From NCBI RefSeq assembly GCF_001180165.1, contig NZ_CVSQ01000001.1:1-64000 (forward strand): a DNA stretch of 64,000 nt, given 5' to 3'. The notes under the pieces were generated by a model. It saw nothing but the letters and a program-made list of their open reading frames with translations, searched no databases and was not told the DNA's origin. The translations under genes were made by a program, and so were the position numbers. This document shows positions 3,576 through 61,409 of the stretch, piece by piece. The stretch's first letter is position 1; the number at the start of each line of letters is the position of its first letter. The stretch is from Candidatus Pelagibacter communis. Lineage in GTDB: Bacteria; Pseudomonadota; Alphaproteobacteria; Pelagibacterales; Pelagibacteraceae.

Positions 3576-4710
3576 CCGAATTTTTTAAATATCTAAGTCT
3601 TCCAATAATTTCATCTCGATCCATGTAATAACCTTGTAAATGTCTATGTCCTGAGTTTGGATCATATTCTGTTCTACCGTGTAATAATCTTCTATTGTTA
3701 AAAGAAAAAATATCGCCTGGCCCTAATCTAAATTTAATCTGGAATTGATCGTCATGAAGCAAATTTCCAAATCGGTGATGAGCTTTATAAACTTTATCCA
3801 TCAAATCAGGATGGCAATCTAAAGCATCCATGGTTGCTACACTAAACCTTATATCATGGTAATCGTTATCTTTTGTTAGAGATATCGCGGGTGCATAATA
3901 ACTTCTAACAGACTCTTGTGTATAATCCATGTCTCTAAATTTTAAATGAACGTTTACTAGCGTATCAAATATTTCTTTCTCATTTTTTCTTAAATAATCC
4001 GCTACTGCAAAGCCATCTACGGCGGACGAGTCTCCTCCAGATGCAGAATTTACTAAACAATGAAGAAATTGGTAACCAGGTGGTGTTTCAAACCATGGTA
4101 AATCCATATGATTTCTTAGGGCATGTGCTGTGTAAGCAGAATTATTTGGTTTAGGGATGTTAATTACTTCAAACGGTGTTTTAAAAAAAGTTTCTCTGGT
4201 ATGGCTAATTCTATTTAAAATTTTAAAGCCAGAATTATTTTCAGTTGGAGCATTTTTTACTATAGCAATTCCAGTATGATGTAAAAGCTCTAACCATCTA
4301 ATAAGTCCTTCATCTGAGCTCATAATTTCATCATGTTCAATCTCAATTGATTTCAGGTCATTTTGCAAAGAGTTATCCCAAAGTTGATATGGTGATTTAT
4401 ATTCTAAATTATTTTTTATTGTATAGCAGTTTTCTCTTAACCAATTTTGATCATAATAACTTATATGATCACCTTCACTCCATTCAATTTCAAGCTTACC
4501 TTCATTATTTACTGCAAATTTTTTCGGATTAATTTTGTTTGATACTTTTAAAATATTAAACATTCTATGACGTGAGTCTTTATCGTGTGCAGTTGGACAA
4601 TTATCTCTTAACCATAAATAATTAAATTTACTTTTTTTTCCATCGCTCCAGTCAACTTCTAAATTTGTAGAATTTTTAGTTATGTTTTTAATTGTAAAAT
4701 TTTGTTCCAT
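3559..4710 (-). CDS. Gamma-butyrobetaine hydroxylase-like 2-oxoglutarate/Fe(II) dioxygenase
   Basis: A 383-residue protein resembling gamma-butyrobetaine dioxygenase / trimethyllysine hydroxylase. It has the N-terminal beta-rich region with WLRDNC (33-38), then a TauD-type jelly roll with iron ligands H201 and D203 in NHMDLP, the family motif PPGYQFLHC (210-218), and the distal His in LLHGR (H344). The family makes carnitine from gamma-butyrobetaine, or hydroxylates similar quaternary amines. Its ATG overlaps the stop of the upstream aldolase gene (TAATG), so the two are coupled. A betaine-type ATPase lies just across the divergent promoter, supporting a link to quaternary amine use. Confidence 0.8.
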   Translation of the reverse strand: MEQNFTIKNITKNSTNLEVDWSDGKKSKFNYLWLRDNCPTAHDKDSRHRMFNILKVSNKINPKKFAVNNEGKLEIEWSEGDHISYYDQNWLRENCYTIKNNLEYKSPYQLWDNSLQNDLKSIEIEHDEIMSSDEGLIRWLELLHHTGIAIVKNAPTENNSGFKILNRISHTRETFFKTPFEVINIPKPNNSAYTAHALRNHMDLPWFETPPGYQFLHCLVNSASGGDSSAVDGFAVADYLRKNEKEIFDTLVNVHLKFRDMDYTQESVRSYYAPAISLTKDNDYHDIRFSVATMDALDCHPDLMDKVYKAHHRFGNLLHDDQFQIKFRLGPGDIFSFNNRRLLHGRTEYDPNSGHRHLQGYYMDRDEIIGRLRYLKNSVNSNQ

Positions 4711-27230: not shown

Positions 27231-27845
27231 TTAATATTGTTGAGTTACAACAATTATTGCGGCAATAATTACTAAAACACTCGCAGAAATTGTATTAATT
27301 GTTTTTGGATTAGCAGTTATCCACTTTATTAATTTTTGTGCGAGCATTGCATAGCCAATCAAAGATAAAAAATCTAAAACTATGTAAGTTGTAATTAAAA
27401 TTACAAACTGAACCACTAAATTAGAATTAAAGTCTATAAATTGAGGAAAAATAAAAGGAAAAAACATCCAAGCCTTAGGACTTGTACCAGCAACTAAAAA
27501 ACCATCTCTAAAAAAAGATAAGTTACTTTTTTCTATTTCTCCATCGCTTGAAATACTTTTTGGTCGAGATTTATAAATATCATAAGCTAAATATAATAAA
27601 TAAATTATTCCGATCCATTTAAACGCATTAAGTATCATTGAGTTCTCTGAAAAAAAAGATCCAATGACAAAAATAACTAAAGTTGCTTGAATTAAATTTG
27701 CTGTAACATCACCTAAAGCAGACCATATACATTTTCCAACTCCATAATTCATTGAATAAGAGATAATTACAATCCTGGGAGTTCCGGGTGTAATAAATAA
27801 AAAAATAATTATCTGTAGATAAAGTATAAAATCTAGGGGGAGCAT
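27231..27845 (-). CDS. LysE/RhtB-family amino acid exporter
   Basis: A 204-residue membrane protein with five or six hydrophobic segments. The LysE/RhtB hallmark is present as FITPGTPRIVIISYSMNYG near residues 17-35, where the usual TPGPN is TPGTP, and the GTSPKAWMFFPFIFPQF block at the middle is family-typical. These proteins export lysine, homoserine, threonine or other amino acids. The ATG at 27845 follows directly on a terminator-like hairpin with a U run, with no room for a Shine-Dalgarno, so expression is likely controlled in the leader. It is divergent from the TIGR03643-type gene. Confidence 0.83.
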   Translation of the reverse strand: MLPLDFILYLQIIIFLFITPGTPRIVIISYSMNYGVGKCIWSALGDVTANLIQATLVIFVIGSFFSENSMILNAFKWIGIIYLLYLAYDIYKSRPKSISSDGEIEKSNLSFFRDGFLVAGTSPKAWMFFPFIFPQFIDFNSNLVVQFVILITTYIVLDFLSLIGYAMLAQKLIKWITANPKTINTISASVLVIIAAIIVVTQQY

Positions 27846-27900
27846 AAAAAAAGATAGTCCTTAAAAACCGGGAGCTAAAGATGGCTAAGAAGGACTATCT
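27846..27900 (-). promoter_or_regulatory. Terminator-like leader hairpin abutting the LysE-family start codon
   Basis: A perfect 11-base-pair stem, AGATAGTCCTT (27852-27862) with AAGGACTATCT (27890-27900), encloses a 27-base loop holding a second small complementarity (AGC/GCT). Read on the minus strand it is followed by six T and then at once by the ATG at 27845. On the plus strand no T run follows. It therefore looks like an attenuator or cis-acting RNA for the exporter; no known riboswitch class is recognised. Confidence 0.6.
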
Positions 27901-27962
27901 AATACATAATATCAGAGGCTAAAAAAAATGCATTAAATATTTTTTTCAAATATAAAGGATTT

Positions 27963-56284: not shown

Positions 56285-56324
56285 GATTGTTATTGAATCT
56301 GTTGTAATTACTTTTATATTAATA

Positions 56325-56584
56325 ATGTTGGTTTTCCAACTACGACGATAAACGAATTTCGTAATAACCATTGCGGACGTGGGGGCAGTACCCACCACCT
56401 CCACCATTACAACTTATGGGGGTGAACTAGATTCGACGGGTGACTAAAGGCTATTCTTTCGTTCGGGATTGTTCCACCGTAACGGGCTAATTTATAATTG
56501 CTAACGAAAGTTATGCACTTGCTGCCTAATTAACTTTGTTAATTAAGCAAACGGGGTCTGGGGCACCTGGCAACAGAACGCCCC
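56325..56584 (+). ncRNA. ssrA: Two-piece, circularly permuted tmRNA
   Basis: The acceptor piece comes first and ends CACCTCC-A-CCA (56396-56406). After an 11-base spacer the coding piece begins GGGGGTG (56418-56424), which pairs fully with CACCTCC as a seven-pair acceptor stem with one G-T wobble. The coding piece continues with the universal AGATTCGACGGG-type start, then a tag frame GCT to TAA at 56500-56529 that encodes ANESYALAA, then a hairpin and GGGGC (56560-56564) pairing with GCCCC (56580-56584). The T arm is GTGGG/CCCAC (56379-56395) with loop GGCAGTA, which lacks the usual TTC. The 5' limit near 56325 is approximate. It rescues stalled ribosomes with SmpB. Confidence 0.93.
56569..56584 (+). 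repeat. tmRNA 3'-end repeat, copy 1 (intact gene side, attL-like)
   Basis: GGCAACAGAACGCCCC is the 3' end of the tmRNA coding piece. The same 16 bases recur at 58724-58739, and the last 12 recur at 57444-57455. Integrases commonly use the 3' end of ssrA as target and duplicate it at the far side of the insert. Confidence 0.8.
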
Positions 56585-56642
56585 TTATATTATGTTTAAA
56601 AAAGAATTACCAACTAGACACTTTTGATAATTATAAATAAAT

Positions 56643-57083
56643 CTAACTATTCTTCCAAAACTCTAAACTTATTGGATTTATCTTATTCTCATTACCTTTG
56701 ATTAAGTTCAATACACTATTTTTAAAATTCTCTGCCTCTTCATTGCTATGAATTAAATGCAAGGACTTTATTGCTCTTGTTATTCTGAAATGATTATGGT
56801 TGCTTTGACATATCCAGTATGAATTCCTTGTTAAGAAATTCAAAAACCAATCTGCTGACTTTTTTACGTTTTGCTTTGCAATTTCTGATTGTTTGATATC
56901 GATGATTTCTTGTTGAGTAAGAATTGGGGAGTTAGGAACTGCTCCACTTCTCTCATTGAGAGGAAAGGTCCATTGTATAAAATTATGAACACTCTCTATG
57001 TCCTCATCAGACATTTTCCAAATATCTTCAAGATATCGATTATAGATATCTGGTTGTTCTCCAATTAAAAAATCTAAAATCAT
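56643..57083 (-). CDS. Opioid growth factor receptor (OGFr)-domain protein
   Basis: A 146-residue cytosolic protein. The block ESVHNFIQWTFPLNERSG (35-52) followed by LTQQEI matches the conserved core of the OGFr N-terminal domain, known from animals and from scattered bacteria; the role in bacteria is unknown. No catalytic motif is apparent. The ATG overlaps the stop of a 75-residue membrane protein gene (ATGA), so they are translated together. Both lie in a module bounded by tmRNA-end repeats, which makes them likely mobile cargo. Confidence 0.7.
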   Translation of the reverse strand: MILDFLIGEQPDIYNRYLEDIWKMSDEDIESVHNFIQWTFPLNERSGAVPNSPILTQQEIIDIKQSEIAKQNVKKSADWFLNFLTRNSYWICQSNHNHFRITRAIKSLHLIHSNEEAENFKNSVLNLIKGNENKINPISLEFWKNS

Positions 57084-57307
57084 AATTTACTTCTGTTTTT
57101 TTTCTTTTCTTTTCTCCAAAGAATAAAAAATAAAAGAATTAGTGCTGGTTGCAAAATAACAAAAATAATGATGTTGATTAATTCATAAGATATTCCAAAT
57201 AACTCTGCCAAATCAACTAAAACGATAACACATATTTTAAAGAGGAAGTCTATAAATTCAAAACCTGAATTCCCCATGGTATTGTATGCATCTATATATT
57301 TATTCAT
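57080..57307 (-). CDS. Small membrane protein coupled to the OGFr-domain gene
   Basis: A 75-residue protein with two hydrophobic segments (about 22-38 and 45-64) and a basic tail WRKEKKKNRSKL that should stay in the cytoplasm. I do not recognise a named family. It overlaps the OGFr-domain gene by four bases. Three direct repeats CTATGTACCT lie 24 to 90 bases before its start, so they could be regulatory or recombinase sites. It may anchor or signal to its cytosolic partner, but this is inference. Confidence 0.65.
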   Translation of the reverse strand: MNKYIDAYNTMGNSGFEFIDFLFKICVIVLVDLAELFGISYELINIIIFVILQPALILLFFILWRKEKKKNRSKL

Positions 57308-57330
57308 AAAATAAATTTAATCAGATATTG

Positions 57331-57397
57331 CTATGTACCTCAAACACAAGTCTATTACAAAAAAACCTCAAATTACTATGTACCTAACTATGTACCT
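57331..57397. repeat. Three direct repeats CTATGTACCT (arm-site-like)
   Basis: Identical ten-mers lie at 57331-57340, 57376-57385 and 57388-57397. The last two are 12 bases apart, start to start, and end about 47 bases before the tmRNA-end repeat at 57444. This resembles arm-type binding sites beside an integrase core site. They could also be operators for the small membrane protein gene. Confidence 0.6.
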
Positions 57398-57434
57398 TTC
57401 CAAAAAGTTATATTTTATGGTAGTCTCTGACCGA

Positions 57435-57455
57435 GGGCGGGATACAGAACGCCCC
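57435..57455. repeat. tmRNA 3'-end repeat, copy 2 (internal)
   Basis: ACAGAACGCCCC (57444-57455) repeats the last 12 bases of the tmRNA coding piece. Like the original it can form a stem, here GGGCG (57435-57439) with CGCCC (57450-57454). A T run follows. It splits the accessory segment into two modules. Confidence 0.7.
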
Positions 57456-57462
57456 TTTTTAC

Positions 57463-57999
57463 TTAGTTAAGTTTCATTTCATCAAAAATATTCTCTGGGA
57501 ATTCTATTTCCACAACCTTCCACTTTATTCCAATTCTTTTAAAGTGAACTGAAATTTCTTCTCCATCATTTTCTAAGTTTACATGGAAAGAACTTAAACC
57601 ATCAAATTTCATTATTGAAATTCCTCCAATTAACGTTCCTAAATTTGGTTCAGGTATTTCAGACTTTTTATCAGATTTTTGTATTAACAAACTTAATCCC
57701 TCAGGATTAATATATGTATCAATTGCGTAGTCGACGAATTTACTTGCAAGACCTGTAACTAAAATTCCAAGTTCACCTAAGTCTTTAAATTCTTTTTCAT
57801 TTGACATTTTATCAAGTAGATTAGCGTTAAAAAAATTTTTGAAATTTTTTTTTACTTCGTCCCATTCAACATAATTTTTACTCAGTTGTTTATCATTGTA
57901 ATATATTGATTTATGAACTTGATGAAATGAATGCATTGCACTGAAAATGTAAAAAAATAATAAAAAAATTGGTAAAATTATTATTGATAATTTTTTCAT
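57463..57999 (-). CDS. DUF2939-like membrane-anchored protein
   Basis: A 178-residue protein with an N-terminal hydrophobic segment (about 5-24), probably an uncleaved anchor, then a soluble part. The order YYNDKQLSKNYVEWDEVKKN and a later FVDYAIDTYINPEGLSLL match the general pattern of DUF2939 proteins, whose role is unknown. It stops just after the internal tmRNA-end repeat. It shares its module with an exported protein of no known family. Confidence 0.6.
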   Translation of the reverse strand: MKKLSIIILPIFLLFFYIFSAMHSFHQVHKSIYYNDKQLSKNYVEWDEVKKNFKNFFNANLLDKMSNEKEFKDLGELGILVTGLASKFVDYAIDTYINPEGLSLLIQKSDKKSEIPEPNLGTLIGGISIMKFDGLSSFHVNLENDGEEISVHFKRIGIKWKVVEIEFPENIFDEMKLN

Positions 58000-58059
58000 G
58001 AATAAATATTAATCAAGTTTAAACTGTTATACGCGCAGATGCGACTAAAACAATTTTTA

Positions 58060-58584
58060 TTATTTTACATTAGTGCAATTCTTATCAAAAAGTTCAGCAA
58101 AACCTCTAGTATCATATTTATAAAACCTTTTACCGTCTTGATAATGATTAAATTGTATCCAAATTTCATCATTTTGTCTCATTAGTCTAGTAACTGTTTT
58201 TTTATCACTATCCAACATATCAAAAAAAATAAATGACGCTCCATGTTCTTGGGATGCCATTACTTTATGAAAACCATCTTTTGCTTTAATTTCTAATGTA
58301 TATGAATAATAACCATCGCCTATATTTCCATCTACTAAATTTACTTTATTGAAGTGTACATATGCCCAATAATGACTATTTACTTTACAACCTACCATCA
58401 AAGTACTTTTTGTATCCTCATATGGAAATGATAAGGGTAAATTGGGACTTACACTGCTAGTTCTAATATAATGACTAGTCGTACCTTTAAACTCATCTTT
58501 TGAAACACTGTGTGTCATTTGTGAATAAGAATTTGATACTGATAATAGAAAAATTAATAAAAATTTAGTTAATATATTTTTCAT
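58060..58584 (-). CDS. Hypothetical exported protein
   Basis: A 174-residue protein with a clear signal peptide (basic MKNILTK, hydrophobic core, likely cleavage after SYS near residue 21). The mature part is beta-rich and polar with two Cys (in VGCKV and KNCTN) that could form a disulfide. I do not recognise its family. Its position between tmRNA-end repeats suggests recently acquired cargo. A triplet of nine-base repeats lies upstream of its start. Confidence 0.6.
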   Translation of the reverse strand: MKNILTKFLLIFLLSVSNSYSQMTHSVSKDEFKGTTSHYIRTSSVSPNLPLSFPYEDTKSTLMVGCKVNSHYWAYVHFNKVNLVDGNIGDGYYSYTLEIKAKDGFHKVMASQEHGASFIFFDMLDSDKKTVTRLMRQNDEIWIQFNHYQDGKRFYKYDTRGFAELFDKNCTNVK

Positions 58585-58606
58585 AAATCGATTTTATTAA
58601 AATTTA

Positions 58607-58678
58607 CAACGAAGTGATAGTTAAAAGACAAACTAAAGACAAAATAGGCAATTCTGACAATGAAGTTTGCAATGAAGT
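58607..58678. repeat. Three direct repeats CAAYGAAGT (arm-site-like)
   Basis: CAACGAAGT at 58607-58615 and CAATGAAGT at 58658-58666 and 58670-58678. The last two are again 12 bases apart and lie about 45 bases before the tmRNA-end repeat at 58724. The layout copies that of the CTATGTACCT triplet in the neighbouring module although the sequence differs. Confidence 0.6.
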
Positions 58679-58723
58679 ATTTTAATAAAGTGAGTAATTA
58701 TGCTACTTTCCAATCTAATGCCG

Positions 58724-58739
58724 GGCAACAGAACGCCCC
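58724..58739 (+). repeat. tmRNA 3'-end repeat, copy 3 (distal, attR-like)
   Basis: An exact 16-base copy of the 3' end of the tmRNA coding piece (56569-56584), 2,155 bases away. GGGC (58723-58726) can pair with GCCC here as well. It ends ten bases before the ppdK stop codon and so marks the right edge of the accessory segment. Confidence 0.8.
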
Positions 58740-58748
58740 CTACTTAAT

Positions 58749-61409
58749 TTATTTTTTTTTAATTTCAGCTTGAGCGGCAGCCAACCTTGCAACAGGAACT
58801 CTATAAGGTGAACAAGAAACATAATCCAATCCCACATTTGAACAAAAAGATATACTATGTGGATCTCCTCCATGCTCTCCACAGATACCTAACTTTAGTT
58901 TTTTGTTTTGTTTTCTTCCTTTTTCTACTGCTATTTCAACTAAATCTGAAACTCCTTCATCTATTGAAACGAAAGGATCAACAGAAAATATTTTGTTTTC
59001 TAAATAATCATTTAAAAATTTACCACTATCATCTCTACTGATGCCAAAAGTAGTCTGAGTTAAATCATTTGTTCCAAAACTAAAGAATTCTGCGTGCTTC
59101 GCAATCTCCTTTGCTTTTATAGCCGCTCTAGGTAATTCAATCATCGTTCCTACTAAAAATTCTATTTTCAATTTATTGTCTTGCTGAACTTGGCTAGCAG
59201 TTCTGATTACTAATTCTTTCATTATTTTAATTTCAGCCTCTGTAGATACTAAAGGTATCATTATTTCAGGAAATGCAGATTTAATTTTATTTTTTTTGAG
59301 GTAAATCAAAGCCTCGAATATTGCTTTGCATTGCATTTCATAAATTTCAGGAAAAGATATTCCCAGACGACATCCCCTATGACCTAACATAGGATTTTGC
59401 TCATGGAGCTCTTCAATTCTTGACTCAACCTCTTTAACTGGGAGATTAACTATATTGGCAACCTCAATAATTTCTTTTTCTGTTCGTGGTAAAAATTCAT
59501 GTAATGGTGGGTCCAACAATCTAACTGTAACTGGTAATCCACTCATGATTTTAAAAATATCTATAAAATCTTTTCTTTGATGCGGTAAAAGTTTTTGTAA
59601 TGCTATTGCTCTGTCTTCTTTTGTTTTAGATAATATCATTTCTCTTACAGATAAAATTCGTTCTTCATCAAAAAACATATGCTCAGTTCTGCATAATCCA
59701 ATACCCTCTGCACCAAAATCTTTTGCAGTTTTGGTATCTTTTGGAGTTTCAGAATTTGTTCTTACTTTTAATTTTCTAAAACTATCTGCCCAATACATTA
59801 ACTTGGAAAAATCACCAGATATTTCAGGCTTCACAGTTGAAACACTTCCAGCAATAATTCTTCCGGTTGATCCATCAATAGTGATTACGTCTCCTTCTTT
59901 AATCTCCATTGAGGGAGTTTTAAAAGATTTATTCTCATAGTTTATATCAATTTCACTTGATCCTGATACACATGGTCTACCCATACCTCTTGCAACAACA
60001 GCTGCATGACTTGTCATTCCCCCTCTAGCAGTTAAGATACCTTTTGCAGCATGCATTCCTTGTATGTCTTCTGGAGAGGTCTCCACTCTAACCAAAATTG
60101 TATCTTGCATCATTGCGGTTAATCTTTCGGCCTCTTCTGATGTAAATACAACTTTACCACTGGCTGCACCTGGTGATGCTGGCAGTCCACTTGCTATTAC
60201 ATTAATTGAACTTTTTTCATCCAAGGTTGGGTGCAAAAGTGTATCTAAAGAGTTTGGGTCAATTCTTAATACAGCTTCCTTTTTAGAAATTAATTTTTCT
60301 TTAACCATGTCAACTGCGATCTTTACTGCTGATTTTGCTGTTCTTTTTCCTGATCTTGTTTGAAGCATCCATAGTTTACTATTTTCAACTGTAAACTCTA
60401 CGTCTTGCATATCTTTGTAATGCATCTCTAATTTTTTCAAAATTTTTTGAAGTTCTTTAAAGACTTTAGGCATAGACTCTTCCATTGATAATTCTTTTAC
60501 TTTAGCGTCTCTCCTAGCATTTTTTGTTATGTATTGAGGAGTCCTTGTACCCGCTACAACATCTTCACCTTGTGCATTAATCAAATACTCACCATATATT
60601 TCATTTGATCCATCTGATGGATTTCTTGTAAACACAACTCCTGTTGCACAATCATCACCCATATTTCCAAAAACCATTGATTGAACATTTACAGCAGTTC
60701 CCCACTCGGCTGGGATTTGATTTAATTTTCTATAAACTTTTGCTCTATTACTTTCCCACGATAAAAATACTGCGCTTATTGCTCCTAGCAATTGTTCATG
60801 AACATCTTGGGGAAAATCTTTTTTTGCCTTTTCTCTTACTGTTCTTTTAAAATCTTCAATTAATCCATCCCAATCACTCTCATCTAAATCTGTATCTAAC
60901 AAAACACCTTTAGTAAGTTTATAATTTTCAATTAATTCTTCAAAATGATAACCTTCAACACCCATAACAACGTTACCGTACATTTGAATGAATCTTCTAT
61001 AACTGTCTTTAGCAAATCTTCCATTTGAAGTTTTGATTGCTAAAGCTTTAACTGTTTTATCGTTCAGACCCAGATTTAGAATAGTATCCATCATACCTGG
61101 CATTGATACTCTTGCGCCAGAACGTACAGACAGCAAAAGTGGATTTTTTAAGTCTCCAAATTTTTTAGAAACATCTTTCTCAATTAATTTTAATTCTTTT
61201 TTAATTTGAGAAATTAAACTTTTATTTAATTTTTTTTTATCCTTATAAAAAATTTCACAAACTTTTGTAGATATTGTAAAACCAGGAGGCACTGGAAGAC
61301 CCATTCTTCCCATTTCAGAAAGATTAGCACCTTTTCCTCCTAAAAAGTTTTTAGGATTTTTAATTTTTTTACTATCCTTGGAATTAAAGTTTAATATAAG
61401 TTTTTTCAT
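58749..61409 (-). CDS. ppdK: Pyruvate, phosphate dikinase
   Basis: An 886-residue enzyme of full length. It has the N-terminal nucleotide-binding domain with NPLLLSVRSGARVSMPGMMD, the phosphoryl-carrying His in GGMTSHAAV (H468) and the C-terminal pyruvate barrel with catalytic Cys in GICGEHG (C843). It interconverts pyruvate, ATP and phosphate with phosphoenolpyruvate, AMP and pyrophosphate; in SAR11-like cells it probably serves gluconeogenesis or PPi-linked glycolysis. It shares one base with glyS upstream (TAATG). Confidence 0.96.
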   Translation of the reverse strand: MKKLILNFNSKDSKKIKNPKNFLGGKGANLSEMGRMGLPVPPGFTISTKVCEIFYKDKKKLNKSLISQIKKELKLIEKDVSKKFGDLKNPLLLSVRSGARVSMPGMMDTILNLGLNDKTVKALAIKTSNGRFAKDSYRRFIQMYGNVVMGVEGYHFEELIENYKLTKGVLLDTDLDESDWDGLIEDFKRTVREKAKKDFPQDVHEQLLGAISAVFLSWESNRAKVYRKLNQIPAEWGTAVNVQSMVFGNMGDDCATGVVFTRNPSDGSNEIYGEYLINAQGEDVVAGTRTPQYITKNARRDAKVKELSMEESMPKVFKELQKILKKLEMHYKDMQDVEFTVENSKLWMLQTRSGKRTAKSAVKIAVDMVKEKLISKKEAVLRIDPNSLDTLLHPTLDEKSSINVIASGLPASPGAASGKVVFTSEEAERLTAMMQDTILVRVETSPEDIQGMHAAKGILTARGGMTSHAAVVARGMGRPCVSGSSEIDINYENKSFKTPSMEIKEGDVITIDGSTGRIIAGSVSTVKPEISGDFSKLMYWADSFRKLKVRTNSETPKDTKTAKDFGAEGIGLCRTEHMFFDEERILSVREMILSKTKEDRAIALQKLLPHQRKDFIDIFKIMSGLPVTVRLLDPPLHEFLPRTEKEIIEVANIVNLPVKEVESRIEELHEQNPMLGHRGCRLGISFPEIYEMQCKAIFEALIYLKKNKIKSAFPEIMIPLVSTEAEIKIMKELVIRTASQVQQDNKLKIEFLVGTMIELPRAAIKAKEIAKHAEFFSFGTNDLTQTTFGISRDDSGKFLNDYLENKIFSVDPFVSIDEGVSDLVEIAVEKGRKQNKKLKLGICGEHGGDPHSISFCSNVGLDYVSCSPYRVPVARLAAAQAEIKKK

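Follow-up and report, generated by a model that had tools for sequence, protein, structure and literature searches.

Islands integrated at the 3′ ends of transfer RNA (tRNA) and transfer-messenger RNA (tmRNA) genes reportedly include, as Williams set out in 2003, examples in the permuted ssrA of cyanobacteria. The dif or pdif modules of Acinetobacter plasmids are moved by host Xer, and pdif sites resemble dif. A close described case is that of the Dehalococcoides ssrA islands, where tandem elements behind ssrA carry variable cargo and are each delimited by a direct repeat, a short copy of the gene's 3′ end; 15 islands have no integration module and stand beside others that have one (PMC3146451). 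For SAR11 bacteria, the relevant part of an early report describes hypervariable regions without a clear integron signature (PMC2217521), and no description of the system considered here was found in the open-licence literature searched. The locus considered here lies in a 64,000-nucleotide (nt) stretch of Candidatus Pelagibacter communis DNA (contig NZ_CVSQ01000001.1, positions 1 to 64,000; hereafter the window), in which two small modules fill the interval between a permuted ssrA and ppdK. The attachment site is the 3′-terminal hairpin of the permuted tmRNA gene, with the common core ACAGAACGCCCC, and the modules that it bounds stack in arrays, vary among close relatives and recur whole at different sites and in different genera. 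The window modules are probably members of a population of small, integrase-less mobile cassettes that have this hairpin as their site and would be moved in trans.

The tandem arrangement, the short direct repeat, the variable cargo and the lack of integration genes are all shared with some or all of the Dehalococcoides islands, whereas a 20-base-pair (bp) repeat and, in many cases, an integration gene cluster are described there (PMC3146451). The SAR11 modules are 129–5,810 bp long, no recognised integrase has been seen in them, and extra sites lie behind protein genes. As in other islands of tRNA and tmRNA 3′ ends, insertion is directed to the 3′ end of a stable RNA gene and restores it, but here there is no integrase inside, the elements are cassette-sized and the gene is an alphaproteobacterial permuted one. 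Alignment of empty with filled sites displays marks of an ssrA island, namely insertion at the ssrA 3′ end, a restored gene and a repeat at the far end; an element encoding its own integrase was not found. The features that define the site and the modules in the window are as follows.

56289..56588, plus strand: ssrA, the permuted tmRNA gene, which is both host gene and main attachment locus (RF01849, 223.1 bits; ARAGORN)
56560..56584, plus strand: proximal site, the 3′-terminal hairpin of the tmRNA coding piece, GGGGCACCTGGCAACAGAACGCCCC (from the sequence; fold z score −2.56)
56585..57455, no strand: module 1, 871 bp core to core, with two genes and its own distal site
57444..57455, plus strand: middle site copy ACAGAACGCCCC, 12 bases (sequence scan)
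57456..58739, no strand: module 2, 1,284 bp core to core, with two genes and its own distal site
58724..58739, plus strand: distal site copy GGCAACAGAACGCCCC, 16 bases (sequence scan)
58740..58751, plus strand: right flank, which aligns with the flank after ssrA in six empty sites
58749..61409, minus strand: ppdK, host gene past the insert (TIGR01828, 1368.5 bits)

The window tmRNA encodes the tag ANESYALAA (ARAGORN), and the arms of its 3′ hairpin, GGGGC and GCCCC, belong to a sequence that recurs, unchanged or nearly so, in the other ssrA loci inspected. When up to two mismatches are allowed, AACAGAACGCCCC occurs at exactly three places in the window, all on the plus strand, against a chance expectation of 0.33 and with none of 100 shuffles reaching three; the repeats are real and chance is excluded as their source. 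The original prediction, that the tmRNA 3′ end is repeated downstream as copies of 12 and 16 bases, is thus borne out at both positions. A hairpin with a GCCC or CGCCC arm is predicted at both copies, as it had stated, though the 76-nt stretches around them fold like shuffles (z scores 0.04 and −0.70, compared with −2.56 for the ssrA copy). Its division of about 2.15 kb into two modules with two small genes each also holds: the interval contains two precise inserts, 2,155 bp in total, with four genes, all on the minus strand, and no integrase. Because each module sits between two direct copies of the site, ssrA stays whole.

The same interval was compared in 44 genomes that have ssrA and ppdK on one stretch, the window included. 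In six (G038, G060, G068, G055, G076 and G024) ssrA is followed directly by ppdK, and eight stretches, the window among them, carry one to three extra cores each. The last core lies 13 nt from the aligned end of ppdK in the window and 12–24 nt from it in the six empty sites, and the alignment of empty and filled sites agrees with insertion at the 3′ end of the permuted gene. Neither conservation of the four genes at this place in all relatives nor strains with the genes but without the repeats, the two outcomes that the original prediction had named against itself, was found. Two near relatives differ at this place. In G076 the site is empty, and the 1,652 bp of its ppdK available for comparison are 95.5% identical. 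In G188 the DNA from the last leader to the far side of ppdK is 94.8% identical to the window across 3,879 bp, and the interval is filled by four other modules that share only leader and site with those of the window. The element in G036 is 129 bp long and contains no open reading frame of 60 amino acids. A tmRNA gene in a 217-bp gap, with thyX on one side and a COG4696 gene on the other, is recorded for HTCC1062 (PMC2704228), and this gap is consistent with an unfilled site. In G103 (L411) a 123-amino-acid gene ahead of a fumarase-like gene (by eye), rather than ppdK, follows the ssrA module, so that gene order around ssrA is itself variable.

Across the genus the exact site is present in 83 of 101 genomes, 42 of which have at least two exact copies, and the reversed pattern used as a control gave none. 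At the level of the order (247 genomes, most of the genomes surveyed being incomplete) it occurs in 185 of 194 genomes of one family, f1, and in 0 of 53 of another, f2. From 104 selected stretches, comprising ssrA loci and secondary sites and with cores of up to two mismatches allowed, 65 modules of 129–5,810 bp were excised from 32 genomes; overlapping stretches (L032–L044) were excluded, and the places with exact sites were fetched in part. Each module is bounded by direct copies of a single site. The longest array, in G316, has seven modules in a row, and arrays are present in the single-contig genomes G103 and G251 too. The leader type found in the window also occurs on 23 named contigs, labelled as Pelagibacteraceae (21), Candidatus Pelagibacter ubique (one) and Alphaproteobacteria (one); those with AG, AH and SCGC names are presumably single-cell genomes, and some titles say metagenome-assembled genome. 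Four genomes (G001, G028, G062 and G074) have a variant tmRNA end, and all ten of their fetched sites, four at ssrA and six elsewhere, have the variant loop, which is seen at no other site of the 104 stretches; an eleventh G074 site lies outside the set. Because these genomes carry the variant at all ten sites, site copies fit the local ssrA.

Three modules recur nearly or wholly intact in different surroundings. One of 274 bp shows 100% identity between G188 (genus g1) and G316 (genus g6); over 321 bp, the ssrA regions of these two genomes show 85.7%. Another of 661 bp is 99.5% identical between G066, where it lies behind rnhA, and G025, where it is the second module at ssrA; its flanks differ on both sides and the tmRNA stretches of the two genomes are 88.7% identical. 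The third, of 343 bp, is 96.8% identical between the ssrA locus of G014 and contig C16 of G019. The degree of identity indicates that modules move as units and that some have been exchanged whole in recent times. The suggestion that the window elements are degraded or minimal leftovers is not supported by these comparisons: modules without a recognised integrase are found throughout (65, in 32 genomes), some have been shared whole recently, and the sites occur behind other genes too.

Those other sites were counted in 34 listed stretches with sites away from a full ssrA. The first site lies 15–18 nt behind rnhA in 10 of the 34, and the remaining hosts are pnp (three), a 68-amino-acid gene (four), a gene of 63–65 amino acids (three), a homocysteine S-methyltransferase-like gene (two) and others (two), with no frame ending near the site in a further 10. 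Family checks were made on one rnhA, one pnp and one methyltransferase; all ten rnhA genes also matched in the rnhA search, and two further pnp genes and the second methyltransferase were assigned by similarity. Thirty rnhA ends comprise 13 with a site (six of them altered), one with a decayed form, 14 with none, including that of G055, which is perhaps a remnant, and two that were not read. In four genomes (L172, L183, L184 and L185) the 68-amino-acid gene is followed by the only site at that place, and a module in G014 and G019 (L132 and L087) encodes a similar protein, possibly a case of gene capture.

The cargo genes and leader of the window modules are these.

56643..57083, minus strand: 146-amino-acid gene with an OGFr_N-like domain (PF04664, E 2.4e-12, 47.3 bits, cut-off 22)
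57080..57307, minus strand: 75-amino-acid putative membrane protein (by eye), with homologues in other modules
57337..57454, plus strand: right end of module 1; over 121 columns it is 77% like the corresponding end of the mobile 661-bp module found in G066 and G025
57463..57999, minus strand: 178-amino-acid gene, DUF2939 (PF11159, E 3.1e-13)
58060..58584, minus strand: 174-amino-acid gene without a family match, its start signal-peptide-like under a crude rule
58577..58738, minus strand: 'family A' leader, the site plus about 150 bp ahead of the 174-amino-acid gene (sequence comparison of modules)

An NCBIfam scan of the 146-amino-acid protein gave no match. Homologues of the 75-amino-acid protein occur in modules of G095 (M32, 83% over 72 amino acids) and G061 (M51, 61% over 59 amino acids), where the partner genes differ from that of the window, and the family A leader is 77–85% identical with ten modules elsewhere (M01, M13, M20, M24, M30, M34, M35, M39, M51 and M55). 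Far from this locus, the window also contains a match to the rhtB small RNA (RF01814) at 27837–27917 on the minus strand, with 81.1 bits against an Rfam gathering threshold of 55.

Orientation was counted in 88 modules, the 65 and 23 more. In 62 the longest frame is oriented against the array and in 23 it follows the ssrA strand, three being undecided. In the former kind, distal ends carry site-linked leaders, often of 100–190 bp, that are common to modules with unrelated genes. Among 49 modules with an opposite-strand gene of at least 60 amino acids, the start codon lies 109–154 nt from the distal core in 38, and a signal-peptide-like start is found in 28 by a crude rule without control; a promoter presumably lies within the leader. 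In same-strand modules the gene begins soon after one core and its stop is often 9–45 nt before the next. Family scans covered 91 module proteins, 8 of 99 having been dropped as more than 85% identical. Among the matches listed (25 of 56 Pfam families, and 25 of 242 in a further scan), the cargo includes type I restriction-modification, type II methyltransferase, polysaccharide lyase, trypsin-like, SHOCT and DUF805 families, and no recombinase is among the families listed. One module, in G092 (L140:2395-3816), encodes a GIY-YIG/NUMOD1 homing endonuclease; such an enzyme as general mover was set aside, as only this one was seen.

The proposed mechanism is that an enzyme of the tyrosine recombinase type, supplied in trans, would swap strands within the core, allowing a module to exit as a circle carrying one site. 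The circle could then enter any resident site, with ssrA the first choice and the sites at rnhA, pnp and other genes second. Cargo would take two forms: a longer module, with a gene opposing ssrA and a site-linked leader of about 110–150 bp taken as promoter-bearing, and a short module, integron-cassette-like, whose gene begins shortly behind one site and ends right ahead of the following one.

Several findings weigh against this reading. No recombinase linked to the site was found, and neither circles nor excision were seen; none of the PF00589 proteins found in ten array genomes lies in an array, and the one common to these genomes is accompanied by a palindrome unrelated to the cassette site. 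In 30 of the 44 ssrA–ppdK stretches there is other DNA (226–5,120 bp) with no second core, so that part of the variation in this interval is not of the module kind. One or two mismatches are present in 19 of 169 sites, in 15 of the 104 stretches, and some inserts (e.g., those of G086 and G031 at rnhA) have an element-like left end and no right core (by eye). The reading also presumes a promoter in the leader.

The search for the moving enzyme covered several sources. No recognised integrase was seen inside any of the 65 modules from 32 genomes, no PF00589 match was located in an array by contig and position, and serine recombinases (PF00239) were found in 0 of 101 genus genomes; the search did not extend to HUH, DDE or reverse-transcriptase enzymes. 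Nine other integrase stretches of the genus, six of them with tRNA genes, have no core at zero or one mismatch and three chance-like matches at two mismatches. A viral scan gave, among 120 stretches listed, 12 below 40% G+C, six of these being tmRNA genes, and the other matches listed showed no visible link; by eye, without a family scan, two further AT-rich stretches (L216 and L232) hold frames of phage structural or replication type and no integrase. A second viral scan gave eight stretches, all tmRNA genes by sequence, a third gave none, and phage records yielded only four weak, unrelated matches. The eight viral contigs of the second scan (L238, L253, L268, L273, L291, L298, L337 and L338) have an exact SAR11-type tmRNA 3′ end beside phage-like genes. 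The tmRNA genes on these contigs are probably phage-borne, and a kindred case has been published (PMC9004378). On L216, around position 3874, GGGGGAACAGAACGCCCCC stands amid phage-like frames and is either a terminator or a related site. The moving enzyme may be resident, or it may be supplied by phages or larger elements.

One form of the explanation by transfer in trans, rather unlikely as it stands, is that a resident single tyrosine recombinase moves the cassettes, as IntI does for integron cassettes and host Xer for dif modules. Nine of ten array genomes, including the single-contig G103 and G251, have this enzyme as their only PF00589 protein, and G188 has two, the extra one near tRNA-Arg. 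The shared protein is a divergent Xer/Cre-like recombinase (72.5 bits on the XerD model, cut-off 329.6; Cre and Xer are among its structure matches) that is present in 169 of 194 f1 genomes, with no match in four f2 genera; the contrast of f1 with f2 is a single evolutionary one. In 58 f1 genomes at least 95% complete, the four without it (G039, G198, G130 and G151) have one core each, and at least two cores are found in 24 of the 54 with it compared with 0 of 4 without, a difference short of significance (one-sided p about 0.11, calculated by hand). In 8 of 12 genomes the enzyme also has a 35-bp near-palindrome of its own, unlike the cassette site, which occurs at a single place in the genome, upstream of the gene; it lies 1–4 nt from the gene in six and 59 nt from it in G105 (the G107 gene position is not listed). 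Tried as the cassette site, this palindrome proved absent from the 65 modules (best match 12 mismatches; shuffled sites 11). At 29 of 30 recombinase loci read, upstream DNA is conserved in all 29 and downstream DNA is of 13 kinds; an example locus is L348:7037-7987 (G000:C51), with further loci at L437–L466. Enzyme and palindrome together look like a single-recombinase dif-type system of unproven role. The f2 genomes have much stronger PF00589 matches in 12 of 12, two each in 11, which we take for XerC and XerD, and the f1 recombinase is perhaps a replaced chromosome-dimer system. A general dif consensus was not found in two genomes at up to three mismatches. Like the dif and pdif modules, the SAR11 cassettes are small and lie between recombinase sites without a recombinase of their own, but their site differs from the presumed dif-like palindrome.

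A broader claim, that this is a new cassette system independent of integrons, with an unlinked recombinase (possibly the resident Cre/Xer-like one) and leaders that supply expression to the cargo, has somewhat less than an even chance of being right. The likeness to integrons lies in arrays of small modules with one site each and in some genes that start after one site and stop before the next, whereas most SAR11 module genes run against the array behind a leader. Three resident recombinases scored 20.8–31.1 bits on the integron integrase model TIGR02249 (cut-off 265), and no IntI was found. As candidate attC sites the cores were rejected, the RYYYAAC/GTTRRRY pair occurring in 2 of 168 sites against 2.0 in shuffles. 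Of eight site stretches folded, two, including that of ssrA, have z scores below −2, and six lie above −2.

It is unlikely that the modules are remnants of ordinary ssrA islands that have lost a tyrosine integrase. As an island target ssrA is common, and the Dehalococcoides account does include islands without an integration module (PMC3146451); but an element with both an integrase and the SAR11 site was not found in the arrays, the nine other integrase stretches, G188 or the viral stretches listed, and some modules without a recognised integrase have been passed on whole in recent times. More doubtful still is exchange by short-repeat or homologous recombination after DNA uptake, through the site of 12–35 bp and the leaders and with no dedicated enzyme. 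Shared leaders, often 100–190 bp long, could support the exchange of modules between arrays, whereas first insertion at an empty ssrA, and modules found at rnhA and at ssrA, share the site alone at their ends, and 12–25 bp is short for homologous recombination. That the site copies are selected transcription terminators between convergent genes and the modules chance gains is very improbable: sites do lie 15–46 nt behind the stop codons of rnhA, pnp and others, and a hairpin followed by T runs resembles a terminator, but several distal copies have no left arm, six of the eight folded stretches are above −2, and identical whole modules at different sites would go unexplained.

The explanation in terms of integrase-less cassettes moved in trans makes the SAR11 system one that works like tandem ssrA islands shrunk to cassettes and, in part, like integron arrays. 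Few cells in the sea are as abundant as SAR11 bacteria. Traffic in cassettes defined by a site, with identical modules across genera, offers a testable route for variation in their gene content, and this traffic carries defence cargo (restriction-modification and methyltransferase) together with many small proteins with secretion-like starts.

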